Assembly: GCA_022376925.1 (NCBI GenBank)
Contig: JAIOJX010000027.1
Coordinates: 17,253,471-17,317,470 of the forward strand
Length of the DNA: 64,000 bases
Direction of reading: 5' to 3'
DNA from: Tragulus kanchil
Taxonomy: Eukaryota; Chordata; Mammalia; Artiodactyla; Tragulidae
The notes under the pieces are model-generated. The model was not told where the DNA came from, ran no database searches, and was given only the letters and a program-made list of their open reading frames with translations. Below, in pieces: positions 1 through 64,000 of the stretch (position 1 is the stretch's first letter; every line of letters begins with the position of its first letter). The position numbers and the translations under genes were made by a program.

Positions 1-2620
1 GCGGCATTCCGTTGAAACTCATTGCTACATGTACCCATGGTGTATTCTTTGTTATTGCTGAATGCCATTCTGTGGGGTGGATCCACTAGCGTCTTGAACC
101 CTCCAGCCTTTAAAGGAGATACAAGTAGTTTCTGGTTTGGGGCCATGCCAAATAAATGAGCTCTGAACATTCGTGTGTAAGTTCTTGCATAAAAATAAGT
201 CTCTGCTTCTCTGGGATGTATGTCCAACAGTGCAATTATGGGTTGTATGGCAAGTCCATTTTTAGTTTTGAAAGAACTGCCAAGTATTTTCCAGAGTGCT
301 TGTATCAGTTTGCATTCTTACCAAAACACATGAATGGCCCAGTTTCTCCTCATCACTGTTTTCCATTTTAGTCATTCTGGTAGATGTGATGTTTTATTGC
401 AGTGTTCATTTTCATTTCTCTGGCGGCTATTAATGTTGAATCCTTTTATATATTCTTCAGTGAGACGTCTGTGTCCTATGTGTCTGTTATCTAATCAGAC
501 TTTTGTTGTTGTTGTTTTTTTTTGTAATGCTGAGTTTCGAGAGTTCTTCCTTTTCCCTAGATGCAAAGAGTTTGTCAGGTGTGTGACTCAAGAACACAGT
601 CTTACAGGCTGTAGTGGGTCTTTTCACCCTTCTTTTTTTGATAAACCCTAGTCTGTTTTTCCTCTTAGGGGTTATCTTTAGGTGACAAGTCCAAGAACCC
701 TTTCCCTATTCCTGGGTTCTAAAGATTTTCTCCCCTGTTCTTCTCCAGAAGCTTATGGGTTTGCATATTAGGTGTAAGTCTATGATACATCTTGAGCTTA
801 GTTTTTGTACAAGGCTTGAGGCTTCATTTTTTGTCAGTAGACTGCGAGTCACTCACACCATTTGCTGAAAAGACTATCCCTTCTCCACTGAACTGTTTTT
901 GCTCATTTTTCACATATTAATTGGGCATATTTGTGTGGGTTGTTTCTGGTCCTCTGGTGCTGCACTGATCCTGTGTGTGACCCTCTGCCTGTATCTCTCG
1001 TCTTGAATACTGCTGTTGAAGAGTCAGCCTTCATTCTGGGAAATGTGACTCTTCTCACTTTGTTCTACCTTTTCAAAACTATTTTGGTTATTCTAGGGCT
1101 TTCATCTTTTCCTGTTAGTTTTAGAATAAGCTTATCTACAAATAAACTCACTGAGATTTTGGTAGGAATCAGGTTGAACCAAGAGATCCGTTGAGGGAGA
1201 ACTCTTTAATCCCCCATCTCCCAATCCATGAGTGTGGTCAATTTCTCCAAGTGGTTAGATTTCCTCTGATTTCTTCCATCCAATAGTTTTATCATGTCTT
1301 TTGGGGCCATGCCAAATAAATGAGCTCTGAACATTCGTGTGTAAGTTCTTGCATAAAAATAAGTCTCTGCTTCTCTGGGATGTATGTCCAACAGTGCAAT
1401 TATGGGTTGTATGGCAAGTCCATTTTTAGTTTTGAAAGAACTGCCAAGTATTTTCCAGAGTGCTTGTATCAGTTTGCATTCTTACCAAAACACATGAATG
1501 GCCCAGTTTCTCCTCATCACTGTTTTCCATTTTAGTCATTCTGGTAGATGTGATGTTTTATTGCAGTGTTCATTTTCATTTCTCTGGCGGCTATTAATGT
1601 TGAATCCTTTTATATATTCTTCAGTGAGACGTCTGTGTCCTATGTGTCTGTTATCTAATCAGACTTTTGTTGTTGTTGTTGTTTTTTTTTGTAATGCTGA
1701 GTTTCGAGAGTTCTTCCTTTTCCCTAGATGCAAAGAGTTTGTCAGGTGTGTGACTCAAGAACACAGTCTTACAGGCTGTAGTGGGTCTTTTCACCCTTCT
1801 TTTTTTGATAAACCCTAGTCTGTTTTTCCTCTTAGGGGTTATCTTTAGGTGACAAGTCCAAGAACCCTTTCCCTATTCCTGGGTTCTAAAGATTTTCTCC
1901 CCTGTTCTTCTCCAGAAGCTTATGGGTTTGCATATTAGGTGTAAGTCTATGATACATCTTGAGCTTAGTTTTTGTACAAGGCTTGAGGCTTCATTTTTTG
2001 TCAGTAGACTGCGAGTCACTCACACCATTTGCTGAAAAGACTATCCCTTCTCCACTGAACTGTTTTTGCTCATTTTTCACATATTAATTGGGCATATTTG
2101 TGTGGGTTGTTTCTGGTCCTCTGGTGCTGCACTGATCCTGTGTGTGACCCTCTGCCTGTATCTCTCGTCTTGAATACTGCTGTTGAAGAGTCAGCCTTCA
2201 TTCTGGGAAATGTGACTCTTCTCACTTTGTTCTACCTTTTCAAAACTATTTTGGTTATTCTAGGGCTTTCATCTTTTCCTGTTAGTTTTAGAATAAGCTT
2301 ATCTACAAATAAACTCACTGAGATTTTTGGTAGGAATCAGGTTGAACCAAGAGATCCGTTGAGGGAGAACTCTTTAATCCCCCATCTCCCAATCCATGAG
2401 TGTGGTCAATTTCTCCAAGTGGTTAGATTTCCTCTGATTTCTTCCATCCATATTTTATAGTTTTCATCGTATAGGTGTTCTGCATTCAGTTTTATTAGGA
2501 GTTATACCTATGTGTGTCCTTCTTTTGAAGCAATAAAAATTGTATTCCACTTTCGATTTGGATCTCCATTTGTTCATCATCAATATTTGGAAATTCAATT
2601 TTTCTTAATATTTATGCTGA
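1..2620 (-). mobile_element. old L1 LINE fragment, 3' part, antisense
   Basis: Read on the + strand, it follows the reverse complement of an old mammalian L1 3' region (CCCAGTTTCTCCTCATCAC, a GCATATTAGG tract, TTTTTGCTCATTTTTCACATATTAATTGGGCATATTTGTGTGGG). It is heavily mutated with no usable reading frame. Part of it is doubled by duplication 1. The exact start lies before the window. Confidence 0.7.
137..2450. repeat. direct duplication 1, offset 1164-1168
   Basis: Copies span about 137-1282 and 1301-2450. The second copy has one extra GTT in a GTT run (at 1675) and one extra T near 2325; otherwise they look the same. The 18 bases between copies resemble a noisy reading of the flank upstream of copy one. 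The duplicated content is antisense L1. Confidence 0.95.
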
Positions 2621-2768
2621 TTTATTTGGCTATGCCGGGTCTCAGTTGGGGCAGTCAGGATCTTTAGTTGCAGCGTGTGGGATCTAGTGCCCTGACCAGG
2701 GATCAAACCCCGGGCCCCCTGCATTGGCAGCACAGAGTCTTAGCCACTGAACCACCAGGCAGGTCCCT
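2621..2768 (-). mobile_element. short tRNA-type SINE (CHR-1-like)
   Basis: Reverse-oriented element with the B-box-like AGGGATCAAACCCCGGG stretch and ending in CCACCAGGCAGGTCCC, the tRNA-like head of ruminant and whale CHR-type SINEs. Confidence 0.6.
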
Positions 2769-2779
2769 GCTGTTGATTA

Positions 2780-3048
2780 TTTATGTATTTATTTTTGGCT
2801 GTGCTGGGTCTTTGCTGCTGAGCCGGCTTTTCTCTAGGTGTGGCGAGCAGGGGCTGCTCAAGCGGCGCGCTGGGTTCCTCGCACGGCGGCTTCTCCTGTT
2901 AGAGAGCGCCGGCTCTGGGGGCGCCATGGCTGTGGCTCCCGGGCTCAGGTGCTCTGCGGCATGTGGGATCTGCTCACAGCAGGGATCGGACCCATGTCTC
3001 CTGAGTTAGCAGGCAGATTTTTTACCACTGAGCCACCATGGAAGCCTT
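2780..3048 (-). mobile_element. tRNA-Glu-type (CHR-2-like) SINE
   Basis: Reverse element running from TTTTTGGCTGTGCTGGGTC to ACTGAGCCACCATGGAAGCC, with the typical internal GCATGTGGGATCTGC segment. Confidence 0.7.
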
Positions 3049-11022: not shown

Positions 11023-11071
11023 GCCACCTCGAGATTTAGACTCCAAAGCTTGCATTTCTATCGGAAATCAG
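11023..11071 (+). CDS. MAP2K6: MAP2K6 exon 3, first copy
   Basis: This 49-nt exon encodes residues 29-44 (PPRDLDSKACISIGNQ), just before the kinase domain. It starts with one base that completes the Thr28 codon from exon 2 and ends in phase 0. The acceptor is a pyrimidine-rich run ending in CACAG and the donor is GTGAGA. It is identical to the copy at 12125. Downstream, this copy's intron breaks off at 11585, immediately before where the AG of the exon 4 acceptor should be, and restarts with sequence already seen at 10479. The second copy is therefore the one physically linked to exon 4. Confidence 0.9.
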
Positions 11072-11814
11072 GTGAGAAAAATTGTATCTGCCGGTCAGGA
11101 TCTTGACCCTTTGATAAGTATGTTTTCCAACTGGCCAATGGAAGAAGTGTATTTTCTGTCATATGCTGTCAGGGGTGGATTGGAAGTAAACAGAACATAA
11201 ACGGCACACTTGCTGTTTTAAATGTCAATTTGGAATCGGCCTCTTGTGGTTCTGATGGGAGCCATTTGAAGAGAGGACATGGTTCTTTGGGGGTGTATTC
11301 TTAAAGTCCAGGTCTGGAGCCAGTTGCCCTCAGTTGGCAAATGGACCTGACATGTAACTGAGGGGCAGAGCTGCAGAACCCCCATGCAGAGCCTGAGCTG
11401 GAGCTGGATCTCTTTACTGCCTGCGATGAATGTGGTGGGCGCCTGCCCATCTCCCAGCTCTCCTTGCTTTCTGTGGCTGCTTGGAAAAGCTTCTAGAGAA
11501 TGCCCGGAGAAACCCGAGGGAGGACAAGGTAGCCCGTGTCCAGAGTGTTTCCCCTTTTCCTATGGCCTTCTTGCTTCTCTCCTGCCATGCCCTCCTCTAC
11601 GGGTCTTCCCAGTGGACGGATTGCATCTGTGTCTCCTGCACTGGCAGGTGGATTCTTTACCACCAGCGTCACCTGGGAAGCCTATATGTGTCTGTGTGTG
11701 TGTATTTCATTATGCAGATAATTACACTATTCCAGTAAGCCCTGTGTAAATAATTATATACAATTATTCTATATGTGTTATATGTATATTATTATATATA
11801 ATATACACGTATTG

Positions 11815-11960
11815 ATTTTTGAACATTTACTGCGTGCTGGGCATTCTGCTAAGCATTTCACTTGGAATATCTCCTTTAACACACACTGTTACTCCGTGAG
11901 GTAGGAGATTAATATTTTCATCATAAAGAAGAAATGGAAGATCAGAGGTTAGGTGGTTTA
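11815..11960 (-). mobile_element. MIR fragment, duplicate
   Basis: Second copy of the MIR at 10712, within copy two of duplication 4. Confidence 0.75.
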
Positions 11961-12124
11961 TCCCCCCCTGTATTTTGTTCCAGGCCCACTCTGTTTACCC
12001 CTTTATGTCGCCTTATTTGACTCATGAGCTTTTGCCTTATTTTTAAGGGAAGCCCTGTCAGTGTTGTACGATGTGGGAAAGCCACACGACTCAGTATCTC
12101 ACGTTTTCCCCTTTTCTTTCACAG

Positions 12125-12173
12125 GCCACCTCGAGATTTAGACTCCAAAGCTTGCATTTCTATCGGAAATCAG
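12125..12173 (+). CDS. MAP2K6: MAP2K6 exon 3, second copy
   Basis: This is an exact repeat of the 49-nt exon at 11023, with the same acceptor (TTTCACAG) and donor (GTGAGA). Splicing both copies into one message would add 49 nt and shift the frame, so only one can be used in the kinase mRNA. It lies 516 bp before exon 4 with no further junction between them, which makes it the natural choice for the gene model. Confidence 0.9.
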
Positions 12174-12689
12174 GTGAGAAAAATTGTATCTGCCGGTCAG
12201 GATCTTGACCCTTTGATAAGTATGTTTTCCAACTGGCCAATGGAAGAAGTGTATTTTCTGTCATATGCTGTCAGGGGTGGATTGGAAGTAAACAGAACAT
12301 AAACGGCACACTTGCTGTTTTAAATGTCAATTTGGAATCGGCCTCTTGTGGTTCTGATGGGAGCCATTTGAAGAGAGGACATGGTTCTTTGGGGGTGTAT
12401 TCTTAAAGTCCAGGTCTGGAGCCAGTTGCCCTCAGTTGGCAAATGGACCTGACATGTAACTGAGGGGCAGAGCTGCAGAACCCCCATGCAGAGCCTGAGC
12501 TGGAGCTGGATCTCTTTACTGCCTGCGATGAATGTGGTGGGCGCCTGCCCATCTCCCAGCTCTCCTTGCTTTCTGTGGCTGCTTGGAAAAGCTTCTAGAG
12601 AATGCCCGGAGAAACCCGAGGGAGGACAAGGTAGCCCGTGTCCAGAGTGTTTCCCCTTTTCCTATGGCCTTCTTGCTTCTCTCCTGCAG
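12174..12689 (+). other. MAP2K6: MAP2K6 intron 3
   Basis: This is the 516-bp intron between the second exon 3 copy and exon 4. It is unique apart from its near-identical counterpart at 11072-11585 in the first copy. I recognise no interspersed repeat in it. Confidence 0.85.
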
Positions 12690-12803
12690 AACTTTGAGGT
12701 AAAGGCGGATGACCTGGAGCCCATCGTGGAGCTGGGCCGGGGGGCGTACGGGGTGGTGGAGAAGATGCGACACGTGCCCAGCGAGCAGATCATGGCAGTA
12801 AAG
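12690..12803 (+). CDS. MAP2K6: MAP2K6 exon 4 (glycine-rich loop and ATP lysine)
   Basis: The exon has 114 nt and both phases are 0. It encodes residues 45-82, the start of the kinase N-lobe. The nucleotide-binding loop GRGAYGVV is at residues 60-67 and the ATP-coordinating lysine of MAVK is the last residue, Lys82. The acceptor is CTCCTGCAG and the donor GTAGAG. Against the human protein as I remember it, residue 57 is Val (codon GTG, 12726-12728) instead of Met and residue 76 is Glu instead of Gly. The exon is present once. A duplication ends about 3 bases before it. Confidence 0.97.
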
Positions 12804-13062
12804 GTAGAGTCCACGTTGCCCAGATGTTTTCCACTCCTGATTCTTAGGTTTGTCCATCTCCCTTGCAAACCAGCTCTTCATACAAGCAAGACACTCCTCC
12901 ATGAACTGAGACAGAAAAGCCTACTCAAGGGGAAGAATATTTCCCTCCAAATGTGTATTAAAAATGTCCTGTGTGTGAATTGCACCACTGGGCTTTTGTG
13001 AACTGATAAACATAACCCCCTCTTTCTTTTTTTTTTTTTTTTTAATACAACCACCATATCAT

Positions 13063-13262
13063 GCTTCCCTGGTGACTTGCACCTGCAATGCAGAAGACCG
13101 GGGTTTGATCCCTCGGTCAGGAAGATCCCCTGGAGAAGGAAATGGCAGTGTTCTGCCATTTCCGCTCCAGTCTTCTTGCCTGGGAAATCCCACGGACAGA
13201 GGAGCCTGGCGGGCGACCGTCCATGGGGTCTCACAGAGTCGGACACGACTGAGCGACTACGC
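13063..13262 (+). mobile_element. Bov-tA SINE with internal palindrome
   Basis: Starts GCTTCCCTGGTGACTTGCAC and ends CGGACACGACTGAGCGACTA. Where the consensus reads GGAAATGGCAACCCACTCCAG, this element has a perfect 10-bp inverted repeat at 13138-13163. Confidence 0.85.
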
Positions 13263-14179
13263 CCCCCAACCCCCGTCATCATCCCCACATGTGGGAGAAT
13301 CAGCAGCGGGTCCTCAGTGTCATCCGCAGCCAGGTCCAAATGCGCATTACCTTGATTGTTTCAAAGTCGTCGTTGTCGTTTTTCTCTCCCTTTGGTTTTT
13401 CAAATCAGAATCCAAACGAAAGCGCACATGTGGCTTCTGGGGTTTGTGTCTCACGAATCTCTTTAAGCTTGATCCTGTTGCTTTTAAAGAATTGTCTCTG
13501 AAAATCAGGAAACCCAAATTGAGGGAGAAAATTGCCTCCATTTGTGGAAACAAGGGAGGGTAGAGTCATCTTGAGCAAATTTGCATAGTTTTGGAGCTAT
13601 AAAAAGAAATGGAGACTCATCGCATATTTCTTGAGTAGATGTTGGGAGGACCTTGGAGCACCACCAGTGTGTTAATTCTAGATGGGTTGTTAGGCATGTG
13701 GATGGTCAGAGGACTCGCATTCCTGTGCTTTTGGAGAATGCGGGCGTCTTTTCCTTGCCTTGTAGATTTTTTAGCAGGTTCTTTGCTCCGCAGGCAGAAA
13801 AATGTGAAAGCCTCGTGATATTGTATCATCTTGTCATTTGATGACATAGTCATGCTGTCTGTGAGGCTCTGTTTGCCAAGGCGGCTAGTTTTTCTTCTCT
13901 TGGAAACCCTGGGAGAGACATGAGCAGTGTCTGCCTTTCAGTTCACCTCCTCCTTTTCCCATGCCTCCATCAATTCTTCTACAGTTGCCGTTTAATTGTA
14001 ATATTCTGACCAGTTCACAAAAAAAGGGAATTTTGGCTTTTCTTTTTTTTGGCAGGATCCCAAATCAGCCCCAAATCAGTGAACTCTCTTTTCACAAAAC
14101 CCAAATAATGAATCAGATGGCCTTGTACCTTGGCAATGCGTTCCCAAACTTGGTATACTCTCTGAAACAGATCATCAGA

Positions 14180-14380
14180 GGGGCTTCCCTGGTGGCTCAG
14201 AGGGTAAAGAATCCACCTGCAGTGGGGGGGACTCAGGTTCCATCTCTGGGTCAGGAAGACCCCCTGGATAAGGAATGGCGCCCACTCCAGTGTTCTTGCC
14301 TGGAGAGTCCCGTGGGCAGAGGCGCCTGGTGGCCACGGTCTGTGAAGTGGCCGGAGCCGGGCACGGCTGAGCGACTAGCC
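14180..14380 (+). mobile_element. Bov-tA SINE
   Basis: GGGGCTTCCCTGGTGGCTCA to GGCACGGCTGAGCGACTAG, with the GTTCCATCTCTGGGTCAGG tRNA-like segment. Confidence 0.88.
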
Positions 14381-14637
14381 CTTCCACTCTCACTTGGCTT
14401 CTCCCCTGAGGATTATTCGGGAAATCATGTGAATAACCATCTTGAATAACCGTCTTCATTACTGTTCACTTGTTACAAATAGCTAATCCTTTAGGGTAGG
14501 TGTTTGAACAGTTGGTGCTAGAGGCTATGCTGTGAATTTTGCTCCTGTTCTCAGGAAGGGGCACTTTAAGGTCCCTGCCTTGTCGACGGTCCCAGCCTCG
14601 GAGCAGTAACCATCCGTTTGTCATGTTTTCCCACCAG

Positions 14638-14757
14638 AGGATCCGGGCCACCGTCAATAGCCAGGAGCAGAAACGGCTGCTGATGGACTTGGACGTCTCC
14701 ATGAGGACCGTGGACTGTCCGTTCACTGTCACCTTTTATGGCGCCCTCTTCCGCGAG
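14638..14757 (+). CDS. MAP2K6: MAP2K6 exon 5 (N-lobe, alpha-C helix region)
   Basis: The exon has 120 nt, phases 0/0, and encodes residues 83-122. It contains the RIRATVNSQEQKRLLMDLD segment shared by MKK3 and MKK6, which includes the regulatory helix and its conserved glutamate, followed by the strand and hinge approach (TVTFYGALFRE). The acceptor is CCCACCAG and the donor GTAGGT. Residue 102 is Val, Ile in human by recollection. The exon occurs once, and a CHR-like SINE begins about 30 bp into the following intron. Confidence 0.97.
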
Positions 14758-14789
14758 GTAGGTGAGCAGTAACTCAACAATGTTTCCCT

Positions 14790-15066
14790 GGGGCTTCCCT
14801 GGTGGTCCAGTGGGTAGAGAGTCCGCCTTGCAGTGCACGGGGCACCGGTTCAATCCCTGGCCCGGGAAGATCCCACGTGCTGCGGAGCGGCTGGGCCGGT
14901 GTGCCCAGTTGAGAGCCAGCACTCTGGAGCGCATGTGCCTAGAGCCCGTGCTCTGCAGTGAGAGAGGCCACTGTGATGGGAGGCCCCCGCAGGCTGAAGA
15001 CTAATGATGGATGAAAATAAATCAATATAGGGCCATAGAGAAAGAGGCCAACGTTTAAAAAAAACC
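14790..15066 (+). mobile_element. CHR-like SINE
   Basis: Starts GGGGCTTCCCTGGTGGTCCA 33 bp after exon 5, with the CGGTTCAATCCCTGGCCC head and GATGAAAATAAATCAATA tail. Confidence 0.82.
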
Positions 15067-15711
15067 TTTTTTTCCCCCTGATCCCATAAACCTCTGCGCA
15101 GTCACAGAGCTCTTCCTTGTCTGACATGTCTGCTGTAGAGAACTTCATCCTCCTGAAATGTTGGTGCAAAAGTCACTTGATGCCACGATAGGTTCAGATG
15201 CACGTAGCCCTTCACAATGCTGGGCTTCCCTTTCTGTTAGATCTCTTTTGGCAGAACTGCATGGGTCGCCTGTCTGTGGACAGACTTGGGTCGATTCTTT
15301 AAAGTCACAGATCCTCTGGTCTTCTGGCTGCTTGCGTAGCTCCAGGCAGCCTGGACAGCATATGGGCTCATGGTTATCTCTTTGCTCTAACTGAGCTTCT
15401 CCCTTTACGGTGATGCGAATTGTCACCCCCACCTTTCTGAAAAAGGTTTATTGGCAGGCAGTTGACTTGCAGTGTTAGCTTCGTTTCTGCTGCTCAGCAG
15501 AGCGAATCGGCTGTGTGTACACAGCCCCACTCTTTCTTAGGTTTTTTTCCTGTACAGCGTTGAGTCAAGTTCCCCGTGCTGTATGTAGGTCCTTCTTGCT
15601 GATCTGTTTTCGCCTCCCTCTTACAACCAGCCTTTACATGATAAACTGCCACCGGTGCTCAGTGCGGGAAGTCCGGCATGCAGTGGGTCTCTGAACGTAA
15701 CTGCTAGCCCA

Positions 15712-15905
15712 GGGCTCTCCAAACGCCAGGAGCTGAGGCCTGGTGATCTGAGGCGGAGCCGATGGAAGAGTGATAGGAATTAAGTACACATCTGTAATCG
15801 CTTGAATCATCCTGAACCTCCCAGCCTCCCGCCTCGGTCCACGGAAACATTATCTTCCACAAAGCTAGTCCCTGGTGGCCAAAAGGTTGGGGACTTCTGC
15901 CTTAG
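15712..15905. repeat. old interspersed repeat, family not assigned
   Basis: CTGAACCTCCCAGCCTCCCG followed by a CCACGGAAACATTATCTTCCAC stretch and CCCTGGTGGCCAAAAGGTTG is a pattern I know from an ancient mammalian repeat, probably a DNA-transposon remnant. I cannot name it safely. The part from 15773 recurs at 16891. Confidence 0.45.
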
Positions 15906-16176
15906 GAGACGGTTTCAGCAAAGGCCTGGCTTTCTGGGATCCTAAGGCTTGTGGGTGTTCCACCTTCAGACCCTAGTTTTCGCTAAGGAGTGGGTGATCA
16001 CAGGCAAGTCTGGCTGTCTGCGCGCTTGCCTTTTGGAGGTAATCCTGCCAGTTTGTAAATTCCTCTGAGGTCTTGAAGGGGAGGCATGGTCTGTCCCGCA
16101 TGACAGATGTTAACCGCTGCCTCCTTTTCTCCCTTTGCCGTCCTCTCGACCCGTCTCTGAACCCACCGGCCGCCAG

Positions 16177-16293
16177 GGAGATGTGTGGATCTGCATGGAG
16201 CTCATGGACACGTCCCTAGATAAATTCTACAAACAAGTGATCGATAAAGGCCAGACGATTCCAGAGGACATCCTAGGGAAAATAGCAGTTTCT
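16177..16293 (+). CDS. MAP2K6: MAP2K6 exon 6, first copy
   Basis: The exon has 117 nt, phases 0/0, and encodes residues 123-161: the hinge (GDVWICMELMDTS), the start of the C-lobe and the helix before the catalytic loop. The acceptor is CGCCAG and the donor GTGAGT. It is identical to the copy at 17295. Because 117 is divisible by three, joint inclusion would keep the frame but insert a second 39-residue hinge segment and destroy the kinase fold. Confidence 0.9.
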
Positions 16294-17294
16294 GTGAGTA
16301 CATCGGGAGCTCCAGCCCCAGGAGCTGGGGGAGGTCTGGGCCTGTGGCCTCCGTACCCTCGATGCTGGGCCGTTGCTGCCGCAGAGCGCCCTCCGCTCGG
16401 TGTCTGTCGGCTGCGTGAGCGCATCTGCGGACGGGCCAGCGGATGCTTTTCTTTCGGGGGCGAGCTCCGGCGTCTGCTCCTGCCCCAGTGTGGCCGGCTT
16501 TCCGTGGAACGGCCTCCACGCGGCACGGTCATCAGCTAGGACCACGCTTCTGGTCTCTGTGTTCTGATACCAGTTGGGTTTCCGCTTGTCGAGTGTTACG
16601 TGTTTTCCTAGAATTCGCTGGCGTAGAAGGAAGCAGCCGGTGAGGGAAGCTGCTCCCTTCCTGACTGCCGAGGCTCAGGAGGGAGGAGAGAAAAAAGTCC
16701 TGGGGGGCCGACACAGCGCCCGGGGGAGGCTGCCTCTCGCTCCGTGACGCCCGCCTCGGGTGGGCAGGGCCCGGCTTGTAGGGCTTCCTGCAGGTGTTCG
16801 CCAGGGCACCACGACTACTGAAAACCCTCCTCGGGACCCGTCAGGGTACTGAGCGTGGGCTCACCTAAGAGGCGATGAGGGGAGGGGTGAATAGGAATTA
16901 AGTACACATCTGTAATCGCTTGAATCATCCTGAACCTCCCAGCCTCCCGCCTCGGTCCACGGAAACATTATCTTCCACAAAGCTAGTCCCTGGTGGCCAA
17001 AAGGTTGGGGACTTCTGCCTTAGGAGACGGTTTCAGCAAAGGCCTGGCTTTCTGGGATCCTAAGGCTTGTGGGTGTTCCACCTTCAGACCCTAGTTTTCG
17101 CTAAGGAGTGGGTGATCACAGGCAAGTCTGGCTGTCTGCGCGCTTGCCTTTTGGAGGTAATCCTGCCAGTTTGTAAATTCCTCTGAGGTCTTGAAGGGGA
17201 GGCATGGTCTGTCCCGCATGACAGATGTTAACCGCTGCCTCCTTTTCTCCCTTTGCCGTCCTCTCGACCCGTCTCTGAACCCACCGGCCGCCAG

Positions 17295-17411
17295 GGAGAT
17301 GTGTGGATCTGCATGGAGCTCATGGACACGTCCCTAGATAAATTCTACAAACAAGTGATCGATAAAGGCCAGACGATTCCAGAGGACATCCTAGGGAAAA
17401 TAGCAGTTTCT
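17295..17411 (+). CDS. MAP2K6: MAP2K6 exon 6, second copy
   Basis: This repeats the exon at 16177 exactly and has the same splice signals. It is the copy contiguous with exon 7, and the sequence after it has fewer apparent errors than the end of the first copy. I would use this one in the gene model together with the flank upstream of the first copy. Confidence 0.9.
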
Positions 17412-18053
17412 GTGAGTACATCGGGAGCTCCAGCCCCAGGAGCTGGGGGAGGTCTGGGCCTGTGGCCTCCGTACCCTCGATGCTGGGCCGTTGCTGCCGC
17501 AGAGCGCCCTCCGCTCGGTGTCTGTCGGCTGCGTGAGCGCATCTGCGGACGGGCCAGCGGATGCTTTTCTTTCGGGGGCGAGCTCCGGCGTCTGCTCCTG
17601 CCCCAGTGTGGCCGGCTTTCCGTGGAACGGCCTCCACGCGGCACGGTCATCAGCTAGGACCACGCTTCTGGTCTCTGTGTTCTGATACCAGTTGGGTTTC
17701 CGCTTGTCGAGTGTTACGTGTTTTCCTAGAATTCGCTGGCGTAGAAGGAAGCAGCCGGTGAGGGAAGCTGCTCCCTTCCTGACTGCCGAGGCTCAGGAGG
17801 GAGGAGAGAAAAAAGTCCTGGGGGGCCGACACAGCGCCGGGTGAGGCTGCCTCTCGCTCCGTGACGCCCGCCCTCGGGTGGGCAGGGCCCGGCTTGTAGG
17901 GCTTCCTGCAGGTGTTCCCGGCCAGGGGCACCACGACTACTGAAAACCCCTCCCTCGGGACCCGCAGTCAGGGGTACTGAGCGTGGGCTCACCTAAGAGG
18001 CAGCTTCTCTGCAGCGGCGGGAGACATGCCTCCCCTCTGTGTTTCTCTTACAG
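17412..18053 (+). other. MAP2K6: MAP2K6 intron 6
   Basis: This is a GC-rich 642-bp intron after the second exon 6 copy. I see no interspersed repeat. It matches 16294-16873, but that first-copy version has about ten missing bases in its last 150 bp. Confidence 0.8.
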
Positions 18054-18105
18054 ATTGTGAAAGCCTTAGAACATTTACACAGTAAGCTGTCGGTCATCCA
18101 CCGAG
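18054..18105 (+). CDS. MAP2K6: MAP2K6 exon 7 (catalytic loop, first part)
   Basis: The exon has 52 nt, starts in phase 0 and ends after the first base of the Asp179 codon. It encodes residues 162-178 (IVKALEHLHSKLSVIHR), including His-Arg of the HRD motif. The acceptor is CTCTTACAG and the donor GTAAGC. The catalytic aspartate codon is split across the intron, with G here and AC at 22380. The exon occurs once. Confidence 0.97.
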
Positions 18106-18404
18106 GTAAGCGTCCACAGGGCTGCCTTGGCGGTTCCTTTTATCAATTTTATGTCTTTAACCTGAGTTTTATTGATTTTTTTACCCTTCCCAATGGATGT
18201 GATTGAGTCTAGAGAGAGAACAGACGGGTTTTCCCTTGAGATTGGGTGGCAGGTCATATGGTAGCTGCTCATTATTGTGTCTGAGGACATCAGGAGCACT
18301 GAGCTGTGTATTGGACCCAACTTGAACGTGAACTGCCTGTTGCCAAGGAGAGTGGTTCTATTTCCATTGAGAACAGTAGAGAACAGGATGAAAATGCATC
18401 TAGC

Positions 18405-18540
18405 ATTGGCCATCGCCCGAGAGCTTGTTAGAAAAGCAGAATCACGGGTCAGGAGACCAGCTGAGTCAGAGTCTGCATTTTTAACAAGATCCCTGGGTAA
18501 TTCTTGTGCCTGTGAGAGTCTGAGAAGTTCTGGCATAAAG
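18405..18540. mobile_element. MER5-like DNA transposon remnant
   Basis: GAGCTTGTTAGAAAAGCAGAATC, then GTCTGCATTTTTAACAAGATCCC and GAGAAGTTCTGGC follow the MER5A-type non-autonomous hAT pattern. Confidence 0.6.
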
Positions 18541-19529
18541 CTCAGCTCTTTGAGACAGCAGGAGTCAGGATAAGACGAAGCAGTTGGTAGATCGAGACGT
18601 CCCTTCCTCTCTCCCTCCTCCCTGCTGATCTCCTTTCTCTTCATCCATCCACCCACCTGTATACCCTTGCTTCCATCTTTCTTCCCTGCCTTCGTCCATC
18701 CATGTATCTTTTATAATTATTTCCCAGCATTTATACAGCACTATATTTTACACAGCACTGTAATAGATTCCCAAACAGGTATCTGTGAAAAAAAAATTCA
18801 TATTCAAATTCTATATGGGAATCCTTGGCTGGGAAGAAACACAATACACAACAAACACATGGGGAAAAAACCCACGTTCAGTATATGAAAGTGCCCAATA
18901 CGGAAGAGGTCAAGGCAGAATACAAAGGAGGAAGTGATTAGCACCAGTGACTAGAGAGAGGTGAGGAGCTACGAGTCACCAGGTCTCTGAAAAGTGTATG
19001 CAAAGTAGTGAGAGCTAACAGGCTCTTAGGATGTGATCACTTTTACACTCTGAACCTGGAGATGATATAAGATGCCTCAAACAGCATGCCTGTTATTTTT
19101 GTTATTGTTAATTGTTCTCATCGAAAGTGGAAAGAAAAGAAGAGGCACGGAAGAAAGTGCTGGAGGGATGCACTCAGGAAGAGGAATGCAGGTTGTCCAC
19201 TGAGTTTTAAAGGCTTATTTCAAAATTGTCCAACATTTCTTTCATAGTAGAGAATGTTTATAAAGCGGAGAAAATAACAAAGTGAAATTTGTGGATCTGC
19301 GATTTAGTTTAAGGGAAAACTGTAAAGAATAATTTTAAAAGTTTTTAGAAGAACTTTTTTCTTGCGAGCATGTGCCCTTTGTGGAAAGCATCACTAGGGA
19401 AAATATTAACTCAGTTTTCTAAGTGTCTGCTTCCGTTATCCAGGCATAACGATGGTTCATGCACTTGGGAGGGTGTGTCTTTCCAGACGGAAGGCCCTGT
19501 GAGAGCCGTAGCGCAAACCCTCTCTGGCG

Positions 19530-19725
19530 GTGGCTTAGTCCCCAAGTCGTGTCTGACTCTCGTGACCCCACGGACTGTAGCCCGCCAGGCTGCTCTGTCC
19601 TTGGGGTTTTCCAGGCAAGGACACTGGAGTGGGCTGCCGTTTCCTCCCCCAGGGGACCTTCCCAATTCAGAGATCCCACCTGAGTCTCCTGCATGGCAAG
19701 TGGAGTCGTTACCCCTGGGAAGCCC
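19530..19725 (-). mobile_element. Bov-tA SINE
   Basis: Reverse element from GTGGCTTAGTCCCCAAGTCG to GTTACCCCTGGGAAGCCC. Confidence 0.85.
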
Positions 19726-20653
19726 GCTCTACCCACATCCTTGTTCTGTGACGTTCCCTGCTTCCCCATCCATCCACCCACCTGTATACCCTTGCTTCCA
19801 TCTTTCTTCCCTGCCTTCGTCCATCCATGTATCTTTTATAATTATTTCCCAGCATTTATACAGCACTATATTTTACACAGCACTGTAATAGATTCCCAAA
19901 CAGGTATCTGTGAAAAAAAAATTCATATTCAAATTCTATATGGGAATCCTTGGCTGGGAAGAAACACAATACACAACAAACACATGGGGAAAAAACCCAC
20001 GTTCAGTATATGAAAGTGCCCAATACGGAAGAGGTCAAGGCAGAATACAAAGGAGGAAGTGATTAGCACCAGTGACTAGAGAGAGGTGAGGAGCTACGAG
20101 TCACCAGGTCTCTGAAAAGTGTATGCAAAGTAGTGAGAGCTAACAGGCTCTTAGGATGTGATCACTTTTACACTCTGAACCTGGAGATGATATAAGATGC
20201 CTCAAACAGCATGCCTGTTATTTTTGTTATTGTTAATTGTTCTCATCGAAAGTGGAAAGAAAAGAAGAGGCACGGAAGAAAGTGGGGAGGGATGCACTCA
20301 GGAAGAGGAATGCAGGTTGTCCACTGAGTTTTAAAGGCTTATTTCAAAATTGTCCAACATTTCTTTCATAGTAGAGAATGTTTATAAAGCGGAGAAAATA
20401 ACAAAGTGAAATTTGTGGATCTGCGATTTAGTTTAAGGGAAAACTGTAAAGAATAATTTTAAAAGTTTTTAGAAGAACTTTTTTCTTGCGAGCATGTGCC
20501 CTTTGTGGAAAGCATCACTAGGGAAAATATTAACTCAGTTTTCTAAGTGTCTGCTTCCGTTATCCAGGCATAACGATGGTTCATGCACTTGGGAGGGTGT
20601 GTCTTTCCAGACGGAAGGCCCTGTGAGAGCCGTAGCGCAAACCCTCTCTGGCG

Positions 20654-20849
20654 GTGGCTTAGTCCCCAAGTCGTGTCTGACTCTCGTGACCCCACGGACT
20701 GTAGCCCGCCAGGCTGCTCTGTCCTTGGGGTTTTCCAGGCAAGGACACTGGAGTGGGCTGCCGTTTCCTCCCCCAGGGGACCTTCCCAATTCAGAGATCC
20801 CACCTGAGTCTCCTGCATGGCAAGTGGAGTCGTTACCCCTGGGAAGCCC
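20654..20849 (-). mobile_element. Bov-tA SINE, duplicate of the one at 19530
   Basis: Same element in copy two of duplication 6, with no difference seen. Confidence 0.85.
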
Positions 20850-21554
20850 GCTCTACCCACATCCTTGTTCTGTGACGCCCCCTCCTGGAACAGCTGGGTT
20901 TATGATGAGCCACACCTGTGGCTCCTGACACACCTGTGGCCGAAGCGTCCTGCTATGGTCTGCCTTTTCATTCCACTCAATGCACGATGGGCCATTACGA
21001 ACTGGGCGTTTGAAGCATTGTCCTCAGAGCACTTAGCACAGGCTCTGCCTTCACAAAAACATTCTTAGGGGCCCCACGCGGGCCTGTTCATCGCAGGGAC
21101 GATGTGGGAATGGCCGATCTCTAGCACTTACGCATCTAACATTGCAATTTGCCCAGGGAACTGGGGATTTGATTTGCCATCAGTTTTTAAGTTCTTATGT
21201 ACGGGAACAGCAAAGATGAGGCATGAGAGGAAACAGTCTTTTCTACTGATGAATTCTCAATGTGATCAGAAGGACAAAACACCCACGCAACAGAAAACAG
21301 ACCACTAAGCTTAGATCCATCAGGACAAGAATTAGTGACTTGTGACCGAGGGGGCTGGTGAAGGGCACGTTGTGACTGTTCATTCTGAATACCGCTACTA
21401 TCACTTTAGGGCCCGTCTTCCATGTACATAACTATGTCCTTTCTCCTTCCTCAGTTTTCCATAATCCAAATCAGCCTCGTAAGCTCTGCTTTTGTAAAGG
21501 AAAATAAAAATATTAAATCAACCTTAAAAATGCACTCCAGTATACAGTAGGTGC

Positions 21555-21790: not shown

Positions 21791-21825
21791 AAGCAGGGCT
21801 CCAATAGTATCTTTATGTTATGTGA

Positions 21826-24949: not shown

Positions 24950-24963
24950 CCAGCAGGTGGCAG
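24950..24963 (+). promoter_or_regulatory. CTCF-like motif, intron 9
   Basis: CCAGCAGGTGGCAG matches every position of the CCASYAGRKGGCRS core used to describe CTCF sites. It is not inside a SINE that I recognise. Occupancy is untested. Confidence 0.5.
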
Positions 24964-38783: not shown

Positions 38784-38789
38784 AAAGAA

Positions 38790-42860: not shown

Positions 42861-43066
42861 GGGCTTCCCAGTCTTAAAGAGGCTGCCTGTCGATGCAGGA
42901 GATGTAGGTTCGATCCCTGGATCAAGGAAATCCCCTGGAGGAGGAAATGGCTTCCCACACCAGTATTCTTGCGTATGAAATCCCGCGGAAAGGGAGCCTG
43001 GCTGGCCACGGTCCCTGGGGTGCAAAGAGCCGGACACGACGGGGCAGCTAAGCAGCAACAGCCGTG
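42861..43066 (+). mobile_element. Bov-tA SINE, duplicate
   Basis: Copy of 41722-41925. Its last 30 bases keep a G and an AG that the first copy lacks. Confidence 0.82.
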
Positions 43067-43354
43067 ATAGACGGTGGAGACTTAAGGCCCTGTGGGCCGC
43101 GACAGCCGCCTGACGCCTGGTTTAGCGCCGAGCTGCCATCCAGCAGGTGCACAAAGGAGCGCGGCTGTGCCCCAGAACAACTTCACTTCAGAGACAGGCA
43201 GGCAGCTGGATGTGGCCCCTGGCCCATCGTGGTTGACCCCTGTCCGGGATGAAAACCCCCAGAAACAAAACGACGGTGATTCACGTGATCGCCCAGGGAG
43301 AGGATGGTGTCCTCCGACTGTCCTGGGATGTCCTAGGGTGAACCCCGTTAAACA

Positions 43355-43571
43355 GGGATGTTGCTGTGTAGTCACTGAAGTCGTGCCTGACTCTTTGAGA
43401 CCCCATGGTCTGTAGCCCACCAGGCTCCTCTGTCCATGGCATTTTCCAGGAAAGAATAACGGAGTGGGCTGCCGTGTCTTCCTCCAGGGCGTCTTTCCGA
43501 CCCAGGGGTCAAGCCGGCGTCTCCTGCACCGACAGGAGGCTTCTTTTCTGTCTGAGCCACCTGGGAAGCCC
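43355..43571 (-). mobile_element. Bov-tA SINE
   Basis: GTTGCTGTGTAGTCACTGAAG to GGGGTCAAGCCGGCGTCTCC and CTGAGCCACCTGGGAAGCC. Confidence 0.82.
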
Positions 43572-43683
43572 TGAGCAGGGATCACTGAACCCGTAGCCAT
43601 CGTCTTGCAGAGGGTCTGGAGGCTCCTGGTGCTGTTAGTGATGCTCCAGGCAGGATGCCCGGTGCTCCCTGTGCCTGGCCCCT

Positions 43684-43902
43684 CTATTTATTTATGGCCG
43701 TGCTGGGTCTTGATTTATGGCACGCGGGCTTTCTCAGGTTGTAGAGAGCAGGGGCTCTTCTTGCTCATGGTGCACAGTAGGTGAGGTTTGGGGGCTCCGT
43801 GGCCCTGTGGCGCGTGGGATCTTCCCAGATCAGGAATCAAACCTGTGCCCCCTGCCTTGGGGGGCGGGATTCTTCACCACTGGGCCCCCAGGGAAGTCCA
43901 GA
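43684..43902 (-). mobile_element. CHR-2-like SINE
   Basis: TTATTTATGGCCGTGCTGGG to CACCACTGGGCCCCCAGGGAA. Copy at 44798-45014. Confidence 0.72.
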
Positions 43903-44797
43903 GCCCACCCTCACTTTGATAACCCCAGCCTGCGCCTGTGGTCTGGGGGCAATTCCGGGGTGGCTCCTCTGCTGCCTCCTGATGGCCGTCCTCGCTATTC
44001 TTAGGTTGCTTCTCGAAGGGACTGGTTCCCTCCCCACCACTTACAGCCTCAAACCCCACACAAGAAGACACATCACGCTTTCCGTGTTCACAGGCCCGCC
44101 TGCCTCCCCGTCCCTGCCTCTGGATGTCACGGCGTTTTCCCAGCCAAGAATAAACTGAAAGGCGCCTGAGGATTGTTTTTTTTTTTTGAGACTTCAGGTC
44201 AGGTTATTGACTTCCATCCCAGACCCCAGTTACATCCCCTGCGCTCAGAGCCCTCCACGGACCTGGAGACAGGGTGGGGATGGCGGGTGCTGGAAGCCAT
44301 CAGCGAGACCTGCCGAGGCTGGGCGTGTCCTGTCTTGATAGTAAAGGGTTCAAAAGACATGGAAAGGGCTCAAAATGTCAGGAGGATGTGGGAGAGCGAA
44401 TAAGCATGACGGTAAGACACTTGGTGGGGCTGGCGTGAGTGGTGGTCATCAAAAGTAGGCCTGCGTGTGTCTACCTTGGCCACCCCCGCGTCCAGAGCGT
44501 CAGTTCCTGTCCGGAGTAGAAAGCCTTGGAGCAGCACCCAATGCGCAAAGCCAGAAAACCTTTTTTTTTTTTTTTTCCGGTCATGATACTTAATGGCCAT
44601 CACCCACCTTCTTTGAGTCTTTATTTCTTTGCTCCTTTCTTATTTGCGAGTGGTCTTTCAGGTTCCCACAGGGCTGACTCATCCAGCCCTCTGCTGTCAG
44701 GTTGAAAACCTTCATGAGTACTTTCTAGCCATCTCTGCGGGGTCGGGGTTTTAGTGATGCTCCAGGCAGGATGCCCGGTGCTCCTGTGCCTGGCCCT

Positions 44798-45014
44798 CTA
44801 TTTATTTATGGCCGTGCTGGGTCTTGATTTATGGCACGCGGGCTTTCTCAGGTTGTAGAGAGCAGGGGCTCTTCTTGCTCATGGTGCACAGTAGGTGGGG
44901 TTTGGGGGCTCCGTGGCCCTGTGGCGCGTGGGATCTTCCCAGATCAGGAATCAAACCTGTGCCCCCTGCCTTGGGGGGCGGGATTCTTCACCACTGGGCC
45001 CCCAGGGAAGTCCA
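44798..45014 (-). mobile_element. CHR-2-like SINE, duplicate
   Basis: Copy of 43684-43902 with GTGGGG in place of GTGAGG. Confidence 0.72.
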
Positions 45015-46381
45015 GAGCCCACCCTCACTTTGATAACCCCAGCCTGCGCCTGTGGTCTGGGGGCAATTCCGGGGTGGCTCCTCTGCTGCCTCCTGATGGC
45101 CGTCCTCGCTATTCTTAGGTTGCTTCTCGAAGGGACTGGTTCCCTCCCCACCACTTACAGCCTCAAACCCCACACAAGAAGACACATCACGCTTTCCGTG
45201 TTCACAGGCCCGCCTGCCTCCCCGTCCCTGCCTCTGGATGTCACGGCGTTTTCCCAGCCAAGAATAAACTGAAAGGCGCCTGAGGATTGTTTTTTTTTTT
45301 TGAGACTTCAGGTCAGGTTATTGACTTCCATCCCAGACCCCAGTTACATCCCCTGCGCTCAGAGCCCTCCACGGACCTGGAGACAGGGTGGGGATGGCGG
45401 GTGCTGGAAGCCATCAGCGAGACCTGCCGAGGCTGGGCGTGTCCTGTCTTGATAGTAAAGGGTTCAAAAGACATGGAAAGGGCTCAAAATGTCAGGAGGA
45501 TGTGGGAGAGCGAATAAGCATGACGGTAAGACACTTGGTGGGGCTGGCGTGAGTGGTGGTCATCAAAAGTAGGCCTGCGTGTGTCTACCTTGGCCACCCC
45601 CGCGTCCAGAGCGTCAGTTCCTGTCCGGAGTAGAAAGCCTTGGAGCAGCACCCAATGCGCAAAGCCAGAAAACCTTTTTTTTTTTTTTTCGGTCATGATA
45701 CTTAATGGCCATCACCCACCTTCTTTGAGTCTTTATTTCTTTGCTCCTTTCTTATTTGCGAGTGGTCTTTCAGGTTCCCACAGGGCTGACTCATCCAGCC
45801 CTCTGCTGTCAGGTTGAAAACAAATAGAATTAGAAAGCGTAGAGCTTAGGCAACATGGAGGTTGTAAACTGAAATCCTTCAAGCCAGGGCACACTGAGTG
45901 AGCTGTCTGTGTGTCTGTGTGCAAATGCTTGTACTGAGCTGTTCACGGGTCCCTGAGACCTGTGCTACCCCCAGACTTTCAGGAGGGTGCCTGCTAGCTC
46001 CAAGGCGCTAGGCTCTACCTGGAGGAGCTGTCCCTTTTGGTGTGGTTGGTTGGTCCTGTTTCCACCGGGAGAACCATGGACCGTGAGCTGATGTGTCCGT
46101 TTCTAGCCAGAGGTGTGGGGGCTCCTGTGTGTCAGGTGGCCTCTCCCTATCACAGAATTGAGCCATTGGAGGAGGATTGCTCTGGGGCAGAGCAAGTGGC
46201 TTTGTTTCCTTCAGAAGCATTTAGAAGCATGTGGCTTCCTGTCTTGGACCCTGCCTCTCCCCCCAGCAAAGAGCAAGACTTGATGCAAAGTTGACTGAAT
46301 CTGAGCCACACGCGTAGACACCCCTTTTACGTCTGGGTTTTTAATCTCCAAGTGGGATTTGCTGGACCCACACCTAGGATT

Positions 46382-46512
46382 GTGGAGGAGGAAATGGCAA
46401 CCCACGCCGGCCTTCTTGCCTGGGGAATCCCACAGACAGAGGAGTCCAGCCGGCTACGGTCCATGGGGTTGCATGGTGTCGGACACATCTAAAGCAACTT
46501 AGCAGCAGCATA
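46382..46512 (+). mobile_element. Bov-A fragment
   Basis: GGAGGAGGAAATGGCAACCC to CTAAAGCAACTTAGCAGCAG, with no tRNA-like head. Confidence 0.78.
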
Positions 46513-46865
46513 CCTGGGGTTGGGCTGGCTACCTTATTTTCCAGATGGATCAGATCATCATGGAGAAGCATAAGGATCACTTGTATCAATCAGTGTTAGT
46601 TAAAAAGTAATACCGTTAGCTGTTCCGATGCAAACCAGCTCTTGGTGTCGAGAGCGAGCAGTACCTGTTAATTGTTTTGAAAACCAATTTCTTATTCCAC
46701 CACTCACGTCTTGAGAACTGAATGTGCCTAAATCTCTGACATTTCTAATGATTTCACTGCTTTATCTGTCTGCAAATTACTTTCTAGGTGACAGGGTTAT
46801 TTGTAAACCAAAGGTTTGGACCACCTTTGCTCTTCCTTGTATTTAGCTGCAGATGGGATGTACCT

Positions 46866-47082
46866 GGGCTTCCCACGTGGCACTAGGGATCAAGAGCCCA
46901 CCTGCCAATGCAGGAGACATAAGAGACGTGGGTTCAGTCCCTGGGTCGGGAAGATCCCCCGGAGGAGGGCATGGCCACCCTCTCCAGCACGGTTGCCTGG
47001 GAAATCCCGTGGACAGAGGAGCCTGTGGTCCATAAGGTCGCAGAGTCGGACGTGACTGAAGCGATTTAACACGCACACATGG
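46866..47082 (+). mobile_element. Bov-tA SINE
   Basis: GGGCTTCCCACGTGGCACTAG to GGACGTGACTGAAGCGATTT, located 275 bp upstream of exon 12. Confidence 0.85.
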
Positions 47083-47357
47083 GTTGCACGTAGCCTACGC
47101 ACATATGTATGTTTTAAAGCAGCGGATACTGTGTCATGGAAGCAACAAGACACCGAGATGGGAGGAGTAGCGACCAAAATGCATCTTGTCGAAGTTGGCA
47201 TTGCTGAGTGTGTGCCTGTCTGGGAATGGGTGGGAAGAGTCTAGTGTAGCCCTGAGGGGGTCCTTAATCTGTTGACTAACCAGATCTGTCCATTCGCTGA
47301 CCTCCTGTGTTCTCGGTGACAGACACTAACATCGGGCGTTTTTCTTCTCTCTACCAG

Positions 47358-47435
47358 CAACATCCATTTTTCACCCTACACGAATCCAAAGCGACAGACG
47401 TGGCGTCTTTTGTAAAATCAATTCTTGGAGACTAA
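47358..47435 (+). CDS. MAP2K6: MAP2K6 exon 12 with stop, first copy
   Basis: This 78-nt coding part of the terminal exon encodes residues 310-334 and TAA. QHPFFTLHES closes the kinase domain, and the C-terminal tail is the DVD region used for docking upstream MAP3Ks. Against the human protein as recalled, residue 321 is Ala instead of Gly and residue 330 is Ser instead of Leu (VKSILGD). The acceptor is TCTCTACCAG. The coding part is identical to that at 48478. In this order a transcript would use this first copy and carry the second inside its 3' UTR. Confidence 0.92.
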   Translation, partial: QHPFFTLHESKATDVASFVKSILGD

Positions 47436-47985
47436 CGATCATGGACTCCGTCGGCTGGCCCTCCTGTGGACTGGTGGGTTTCCGGGCTGAAGTTCACGAA
47501 AGCGCCAAAAGAAACTCATTTTTGAGATGATTTAGCCTTGCCTCTCCAAAGGCTTTTTTCCTCCCCATGTTCTCTTTTTTCCCCTCCAAAGGGGGCCTTG
47601 GAATCTATAGTTAGAGAATGAACTGTCTAGATGGATGAAATATGATAAAGGCTTAGGACTTAAAAAGGTGATTAAATATTTAACGATGTGTCATATGAGT
47701 CCGTAAGCTTCTCAGACTTCTGTTCTTTACAAAACGAATGCATTGGCCCTGGTACAAAGGTGCTACCACAGTGATGAAATTGTAAGTAGATCTGTAGTCT
47801 GTTCCCTTATTATTTTAATATTTATGTTTAAGTGCTTGGTTGACAAGATTCCATTTTATGCGAGGAAAGGGGAGACAAAAGCCGAGAGTGGGTTGGCAGT
47901 ATTTATAGGCTTTTTATTTTGCAAGTGCCCAACATTTGGACCACCTTTGCTCTTCCTTGTATTTAGCTGCAGATGGGATGTACCT

Positions 47986-48202
47986 GGGCTTCCCACGTGG
48001 CACTAGGGATCAAGAGCCCACCTGCCAATGCAGGAGACATAAGAGACGTGGGTTCAGTCCCTGGGTCGGGAAGATCCCCCGGAGGAGGGCATGGCCACCC
48101 TCTCCAGCACGGTTGCCTGGGAAATCCCGTGGACAGAGGAGCCTGTGGTCCATAAGGTCGCAGAGTCGGACGTGACTGAAGCGATTTAACACGCACACAT
48201 GG
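47986..48202 (+). mobile_element. Bov-tA SINE, duplicate
   Basis: Identical copy of 46866-47082, placed between the two exon 12 copies. Confidence 0.85.
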
Positions 48203-48477
48203 GTTGCACGTAGCCTACGCACATATGTATGTTTTAAAGCAGCGGATACTGTGTCATGGAAGCAACAAGACACCGAGATGGGAGGAGTAGCGACCAAAAT
48301 GCATCTTGTCGAAGTTGGCATTGCTGAGTGTGTGCCTGTCTGGGAATGGGTGGGAAGAGTCTAGTGTAGCCCTGAGGGGGTCCTTAATCTGTTGACTAAC
48401 CAGATCTGTCCATTCGCTGACCTCCTGTGTTCTCGGCGACAGACACTAACATCGGGCGTTTTTCTTCTCTCTACCAG

Positions 48478-48555
48478 CAACATCCATTTTTCACCCTACA
48501 CGAATCCAAAGCGACAGACGTGGCGTCTTTTGTAAAATCAATTCTTGGAGACTAA
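48478..48555 (+). CDS. MAP2K6: MAP2K6 exon 12 with stop, second copy
   Basis: This repeats the coding part of the terminal exon at 47358, and the first visible difference lies just after the stop codon (CCGCGG here, CCGTCGG in the first copy). It is linked to the unduplicated downstream DNA, so the true 3' UTR should be read from this copy. Confidence 0.92.
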   Translation, partial: QHPFFTLHESKATDVASFVKSILGD

Positions 48556-62210: not shown

Positions 62211-62237
62211 TTAAAATATATTTCTTCCAGGTGAGAG

Positions 62238-62355
62238 AACTCATACTGGAGTGAGCTGACATTCTCTTCTTCAGGGGTCCCGACCCGGGGATGGAACCCG
62301 GGTCTCCCAAATTGCAGATGGAGTCCTTACCGTCTGAGCCACCAGGGAAGCCCAA
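62238..62355 (-). mobile_element. Bov-tA SINE, truncated
   Basis: GGGGATGGAACCCGGGTCTC to TCTGAGCCACCAGGGAAGCCC. Only the tRNA-like part and a short body remain. Confidence 0.8.
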
Positions 62356-62602
62356 TATAATACATATAACCACACGGCAGCACTCTGATGTTTGGTTAAA
62401 CGCTGGTCCCCTTTTCTCATTGCAAAGTTATTGAAAAGTACTGTGAAGGGGGAATGTGGCCCTGATGTGTGAGCACATGAGGATCAGTTATAGTCAGGCA
62501 GAGTTTTAATGATGCCAAACGGAGTCTGCTTCATGGATGCAGAGCATTTTGCTGGCTTCATAGCAAAGGAGGAACAGGAGGCTTAGAGAATATCCTAAAG
62601 GA

Positions 62603-64000
62603 TTTCTGCTTCCAAACTCAGTGACTTCCTGGTATCTCTGGGCCTTCACGTGTCTCCCCTTGGGTCTCTCTGCCCTGACCCTGTAGACAGACACTTCCCC
62701 GGCAAGCCGTGCCTCTCTTCCCCCAAGGAAGGCGGCCTCGCGCCTCCTGCGTCTCGCCTCAGTCAGCTGGGCCCTGGGCGGCTCCTGTTCCTCCGTTCTA
62801 GAGCACGCTGTGGCCTGGGAGGCAAAGAGCTGTCCGTAGATGAGAACGTGCGAAACCACTTGACCTTTTCAGCAGCTGCAGAGCCGGGGACCGAGGACAT
62901 GCCATCTCCCTGACGTCTTCCGCTTGGCAGCCCGAGCAGTCAGGCTGGTGACATTGCATGCTTTTGAAAACGTCTGAACAATTCACAGCGTTCGCCACAG
63001 AGTGGCTCAATTGGTCTCGCTAGCCAGATAGCGATCTTTGGAAAGACGCTCCTCTCCTTAACGTGTTCACTGGGATCAACAAAAACACTGATCCAGGCCA
63101 GAGCCTCTGACGCCCTACGCTGTAAACAAGAACAGCCTAGATCAGTTTCAGACCACAGACGCAGGGCAAGGGACAGCGTCTGTTTGCAATAGCAGAGAAT
63201 GTGAACTCTGTTCATGCGTGTGAGCAATTTCTTGAAAATTAAGGAGCCCGAGCGCTTTAATTTAGCTTCTCTGAAAGCGATGTCTGTGTGCAAACATCTG
63301 TGATTCATGACATACTTTTGCAGGATGCTCTGAATTGAAACACAACTCAGTCATGTTCATCAAGTGAGTGAAGAATGATTTTAAAACAGTGAAAGGAGCG
63401 ATGACATTGCTGAGCGGGAGACAGAGCTTGAGCTGACATAGAAACCAGGAGAAAGGCCCTAGGCTAGAGCCACGCTGGCTGCTTAAAATCCTGGCTCCTC
63501 CGCTCAGGAGCTGCCTGACCTTGAACACATGTCCTCAACTCTCTGTCCTTCAGTTTACTCTATCTTAAAATAGAAATAATAATAGGACCTGCTTTAGGAG
63601 TGCTCGTGAGAAAAATTCAGTGAACCTATCCTGCAAAGCTCTGAGGCCGGTGTCTGGCATGTGAGCACTGAATACTGCATTAGTGAACCTCTGAACCTCC
63701 TTTGGCATGGAGCGAAAAGTTTCTGCTTCTGGTTATCTCTGGGCCTTCACGTGTCTCCCTTGGGTCTCTCTGCCCTGACCCTGTAGACAGACACTTCCCC
63801 GGCAAGCCGTGCCTCTCTTCCCCCAAGGAAGGCGGCCTCGCGCCTCCTGCGTCTCGCCTCAGTCAGCTGGGCCCTGGGCGGCTCCTGTTCCTCCGTTCTA
63901 GAGCAAGCTGTGGCCTGGGAGGCAAAGAGCTGTCCGTAGATGAGAACGTGCGAAACCACTTGACCTTTTCAGCAGCTGCAGAGCCGGGGACCGAGGACAT
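62603..64000. repeat. direct duplication 17, offset 1100, cut by window end
   Basis: Sequence from about 62633 recurs from 63734 to the last base. Copy two starts noisily: about 15 bases of 62612-62632 are missing at 63728. One C-run difference and one substitution (GAGCACGCT against GAGCAAGCT) follow. The first unit probably ends near 63719. Confidence 0.93.
63480..63690 (+). mobile_element. MIR element
   Basis: AGCTGCCTGACCTTGAACAC, CTCTGTCCTTCAGTTTACTC, AAATAGAAATAATAATAGGACC and GTCTGGCATGTGAGCACTGAA follow the MIR order closely. Confidence 0.8.

Follow-up and report, generated by a model that had tools for sequence, protein, structure and literature searches.

The stretch of Tragulus kanchil DNA analysed here (64,000 nucleotides, hereafter the window; assembly GCA_022376925.1, contig JAIOJX010000027.1, positions 17,253,471 to 17,317,470 of the forward strand) carries 17 serial direct duplications of about 1.1 kb. 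Judged from the sequence, they are very probably (about 0.95) an assembly artefact in which overlapping consensus blocks were joined unmerged, and would have no counterpart in the chromosome. The window also contains exons of the gene MAP2K6, some of which fall within the duplicated units.

Seventeen direct duplications with a near-constant period

A self-BLAST of the whole window on both strands (at least 90% identity over at least 250 bp) returned 17 long self-matches, all direct and arranged head to tail; beyond these 17 pairs the search gave no match, and none was inverted. The pairs were located by exact-word diagonals followed by pairwise alignment. An original prediction, made from the letters of the window, had placed 17 direct duplications here, and every one of them is present, displaced by no more than 11 bp. 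The exact junction base varies with alignment scoring, such that self-BLAST places two junctions at 16881 and 56672 that pairwise alignment places at 16869 and 56663. Sixteen units are complete, and the seventeenth is cut by the end of the window, which leaves only the first 272 bases of copy 2. The period ranges from 1,080 to 1,164 bp, with a mean of 1,109, a standard deviation of 21 and a coefficient of variation of 1.9% over the 17 units, the seventeenth being set by hand at 1,100; the near-constant unit of about 1.1 kb that had been proposed is thus borne out. The units and their copies, all on the forward (+) strand, are as follows, with each junction marked by the start of copy 2.

Unit 1, copy 1 136-1290, copy 2 1300-2464 (+): 99.1% identity, no substitutions, three insertion-deletion (indel) events, 9 bp between the copies.
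Unit 2, copy 1 3655-4742, copy 2 4735-5822 (+): 100% identity, 8 bp common at the junction.
Unit 3, copy 1 8197-9301, copy 2 9297-10401 (+): 100% identity, 5 bp common at the junction.
Unit 4, copy 1 10479-11585, copy 2 11582-12687 (+): MAP2K6 exon for residues 29-44, twice.
Unit 5, copy 1 15756-16873, copy 2 16869-18001 (+): MAP2K6 exon for residues 121-162, twice; bases lost near the end of copy 1.
Unit 6, copy 1 18642-19753, copy 2 19767-20877 (+): 99.8% identity.
Unit 7, copy 1 24321-25410, copy 2 25407-26500 (+): 122 bp overlap with unit 8.
Unit 8, copy 1 26379-27474, copy 2 27473-28570 (+): MAP2K6 exon for residues 248-293, twice.
Unit 9, copy 1 32412-33506, copy 2 33506-34599 (+): 99.9% identity.
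Unit 10, copy 1 36306-37420, copy 2 37421-38523 (+): 180 bp overlap with unit 11.
Unit 11, copy 1 38344-39440, copy 2 39449-40545 (+): contains a three-copy stretch (with unit 10).
Unit 12, copy 1 40862-42004, copy 2 42004-43146 (+): no substitutions, seven indel events.
Unit 13, copy 1 43635-44709, copy 2 44751-45821 (+): 41 bp unaligned between the copies.
Unit 14, copy 1 46815-47926, copy 2 47935-49047 (+): last MAP2K6 exon (residues 310-334 and stop), twice.
Unit 15, copy 1 52832-53944, copy 2 53944-55057 (+): 99.9% identity.
Unit 16, copy 1 55572-56668, copy 2 56663-57774 (+): lowest identity, differences mostly at the unit ends.
Unit 17, copy 1 from 62629, copy 2 63729-64000 (+): truncated where the window stops; 98.9% identity over the 272 bases compared.

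The content of the units differs from site to site, being the local DNA each time. Self-BLAST pairs each copy with its neighbour only, in keeping with the earlier claim that the units share no common sequence. Identity between copies is 96.4-100%; in two units it reaches 100%, across 1,088 and 1,105 bp. The copies of the 16 complete units are spaced by -8 to +41 bp, and the 64,000 bases contain no N characters, so there is no gap between copies. Nowhere are there more than two full copies of any unit, and successive units overlap in only two of the 15 consecutive complete pairs, by 122 and 180 bp. The segments between junctions, referred to below as blocks, vary in length from 2,028 to 7,066 bp (16 blocks). 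The redundant sequence comes to 17,760 bp for the complete units plus 272 bp for the seventeenth, matching the predicted figure of about 18 kb in 64 kb. A 17-fold pattern of this kind is far beyond chance.

Base loss towards the junctions

Between genuine duplicates, most differences should be substitutions rather than indels. The 16 complete pairs depart from this pattern of ordinary mutation, with 14 substitutions (seven of them transitions) against 54 indel events comprising 109 bases. Two-thirds of the indels (36 of 54) are less than 100 bp or so from the nearest unit end. If the consensus of a block loses bases towards its ends, the deficit would be expected in copy 2 over the first half of a unit, where copy 2 opens its block, and in copy 1 over the second half, where copy 1 closes its block. 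Losses in copy 2 against those in copy 1 number 14:6 for first-half events and 6:28 for second-half events (Fisher p=3e-4), and 10:1 and 4:18, respectively, when one-base events are taken alone (p=1e-4). At the level of units, the net direction is as predicted in all 14 that bear indels (sign test p=1.2e-4); of the 16 complete units, units 2 and 3 are without differences, and unit 17 was left out. The missing bases thus belong chiefly to whichever copy lies closer to its segment's end.

The two places where units overlap provide stretches that are present three times. In the 122 bp shared by units 7 and 8, the copies agree save for two edge bases. In the 180 bp shared by units 10 and 11, an AAAA is missing only in the copy at the start of a block. 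A further comparison drew on short interspersed elements (SINEs): 11 differences could be matched outside their own pair, mostly via flanking sequence, and four of these were informative. Three differences in unit 7, when set against other SINE copies, all favour copy 2, which lies at the greater distance from the end of its block. The order of SINEs after collapsing the duplications was dropped as a test, since it would not tell an artefact from a real tandem duplication.

On these indirect tests, the paired copies behave as one locus written twice. The original prediction had read the pattern as unmerged overlaps, and support for that reading comes from the indel-dominated differences, the concentration of errors at unit ends, the loss of bases in the copy nearer the segment end, the odd segment-start copy in a three-copy stretch and the otherwise orderly MAP2K6 described next.

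Doubled exons in MAP2K6

MAP2K6 was mapped by tblastn with a query protein that was verified over its full length against PDB 3vn9_A. At 11023..48552 (+), 10 exons covering residues 29-334 are found in order; weak chance matches in the tblastn table (E values of 1.6-4.8) were set aside. Four exons are doubled, those for residues 29-44, 121-162, 248-293 and 310-334 with the stop, and all of them lie within units 4, 5, 8 and 14. The remaining six lie outside the duplicated units and each is single. The exon matches contain no internal stops, and canonical AG or GT candidate splice sites are situated at the expected boundaries. By these candidate boundaries the duplicated internal exons measure 49, 117 and 140 bp, two of which (49 and 140) would disrupt the reading frame were both copies retained in the mRNA. 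No credible tblastn match to residues 1-28 was found in the window, and the corresponding exons presumably lie upstream of it.

A model for the origin of the duplications

The observations suggest a model in which the sequence would consist of separately computed consensus blocks, 2.0-7.1 kb long and strung one after another, with neighbouring blocks sharing about 1.1 kb of one locus. A joining step that set the blocks end to end and kept the shared part would then write the shared stretch twice. An overlap that stays constant while the blocks vary in length fits a graph in which edges meet at shared, fixed-size nodes, and the blocks are probably edge blocks from an assembler of the wtdbg2 type, a program that we infer from this fit with less assurance than the artefact itself. 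In such a graph, adjacent edges would share one node of about 1,024 bp, and the duplications could result if these edges were left unmerged at the consensus step. The period would exceed 1,024 bp if deletions had made the reads shorter than the genome, as happens with nanopore data. Neighbouring wtdbg2 nodes may overlap by up to 256 bp, a limit that agrees with the unit overlaps of 122 and 180 bp and with the shortest block of 2,028 bp, or about two nodes.

Published descriptions of the program, as far as the passages cited here go, are compatible with this model in part. The graph points of wtdbg2 are 1,024-bp pieces of reads (nanopore assembly paper, PMC7506008), and the program outputs a contig layout with edge sequences from which wtpoa-cns makes the consensus (goat genome paper, PMC8434745; also PMC9915519). 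Graph points of about 1 kb followed by a consensus over the layout would give blocks that share about 1 kb. In contrast, those passages make no mention of a merge failure, and the units in the window measure 1,080-1,164 bp rather than 1,024 bp.

Several observations weigh against the artefact reading or its attribution to wtdbg2. Twelve of the 54 indel events run opposite to the predicted direction, and the polarity (5:2 and 4:11) is not significant (p=0.074) among indels that are separated from both ends by more than 60 bp. The event-level p-values given above (3e-4 and 1e-4) take clustered events as independent, which the unit-level test does not. Microhomology of 4-8 bp is present at six of the 11 filler-free junctions (for example 4735-4742, 9297-9301 and 16869-16873; lengths judged by eye from the junction sequences), and random joins give at least 4 bp in 2.0% of cases. 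The excess, which the original prediction does not mention, could stem from a join step that searched for overlap and stopped at a tiny false one, but microhomology-mediated duplication would produce it as well. None of the 17 periods equals 1,024 bp, and a mean of 1,109 requires a change in length between reads and genome. Bovine assemblies made with wtdbg2 have been published at a normal size of 2.6-2.7 Gb (PMC10250393, in the part cited), which implies that a merge failure is not the usual behaviour of the program. Finally, a literature search for this defect returned no description of this exact form.

Five of the 16 complete junctions instead carry unmatched filler of 8-41 bp. The longest is at 44710-44750 in unit 13, where 41 bp between the copies align to neither neighbour; this segment may be a low-quality block end that has suffered a larger deletion.

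Alternative explanations

The alternative that survives best is that overlapping contigs, clone pieces or reads were concatenated by another route, such as draft clone finishing, a scaffolder that dropped gaps, or the unmerged edges of another assembler. This would be the same class of artefact made by a different program, and all of the evidence for an artefact fits it equally. False duplications arising from overlaps at contig boundaries, along with a bug in FALCON, have been described (PMC8081667, in the passages used here). Against this, the overlap in the window is nearly constant in length and there is no N between the copies, and we regard another route as possible but clearly less likely than wtdbg2-type edge blocks.

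A polishing or chunking tool that stitched fixed overlapping windows together untrimmed would naturally produce a fixed overlap. The 16 blocks range from 2,028 to 7,066 bp, however, and this explanation was rejected as very unlikely.

Real serial microduplication, in which 17 recent tandem events of about 1.1 kb arose by replication slippage or microhomology-mediated repair, derives its support from the junction microhomology, which is above the random-join null. It is hard to reconcile with a constant length of arbitrary content and with the limit of two full copies, with indels outnumbering substitutions 54 to 14 and bases being lost directionally towards the junctions, and with a coding gene whose doubled exons of 49 and 140 bp are frame-breaking. 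A microhomology-seeded process that made tandem duplications of about 1.1 kb 17 times in 64 kb and kept MAP2K6 functional is scarcely credible, as is serial microduplication in general.

Equally improbable is a heterotype false duplication, in which parental haplotypes are placed in series. It would provide two near-identical copies per site, but 14 substitutions over about 17 kb of paired sequence, with two pairs lacking any difference, are too few for haplotypes, and the fixed length and directional errors would be left unaccounted for. De Bruijn contigs with a fixed-k overlap were rejected given a period that varies by 84 bp and pairs that are mostly non-identical, and a satellite or transposon given the lack of a common unit and of any other long self-BLAST match.

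Relation to known assembly defects

False homotype duplications at contig boundaries are known from vertebrate assemblies, where the bug in FALCON is among the causes (Rhie et al., 2021, PMC8081667), and such false duplications have been misread as gains of genes and exons (PMC9516828). Cattle assemblies, too, have contained misassembled duplications (Zimin et al., 2012, PMC3411808). The window resembles the false homotype class in that what behaves as one locus is doubled in tandem at a join, here as 17 adjacent direct pairs, and in that consensus quality is unequal between the copies, being poorer at the ends of pieces. It differs from the cases in PMC8081667, where the duplicated length was often that of a corrected read and a gap followed scaffolding, in having 17 gapless joins in 64 kb at a near-constant 1.1 kb. 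It shares with the bovine assembly of Zimin et al. (PMC3411808) false intrachromosomal duplications of high identity; those regions exceed 5 kb and come from a different generation of assembly, and the abstract gives no fixed unit of about 1.1 kb. The window is a gapless form of the false homotype class with near-constant length.

The pattern is thus not to be read as biology. Should the rest of the assembly be affected in this way, gene models would contain doubled exons, counts of SINEs and duplications would be about a quarter too high, and work on recent tandem duplication in the animal would reach wrong results. The signature of a near-constant period, an excess of indels and base loss towards junctions offers a simple screen for such blocks that requires no reads.

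Other repeats in the window

Tandem Repeats Finder reported only two short arrays and is uninformative for these units, as it handles periods of up to 500 bp. Two SINE consensus pieces, taken by us to be Bov-A2 and Bov-tA, gave 49 ruminant-type matches (26 and 23, respectively, doubled copies included). The label "bovid" in the original prediction holds to the extent that these matches indicate a ruminant; nothing in them supports a narrower assignment. Rfam and ARAGORN returned tRNA-like matches at 22024-22093, 22952-23023, 2689-2760 and 62275-62347, and nothing else. The match at 2689-2760 falls inside a match to the presumed Bov-tA piece (2670-2766), and the remaining three are probably SINE-derived as well.

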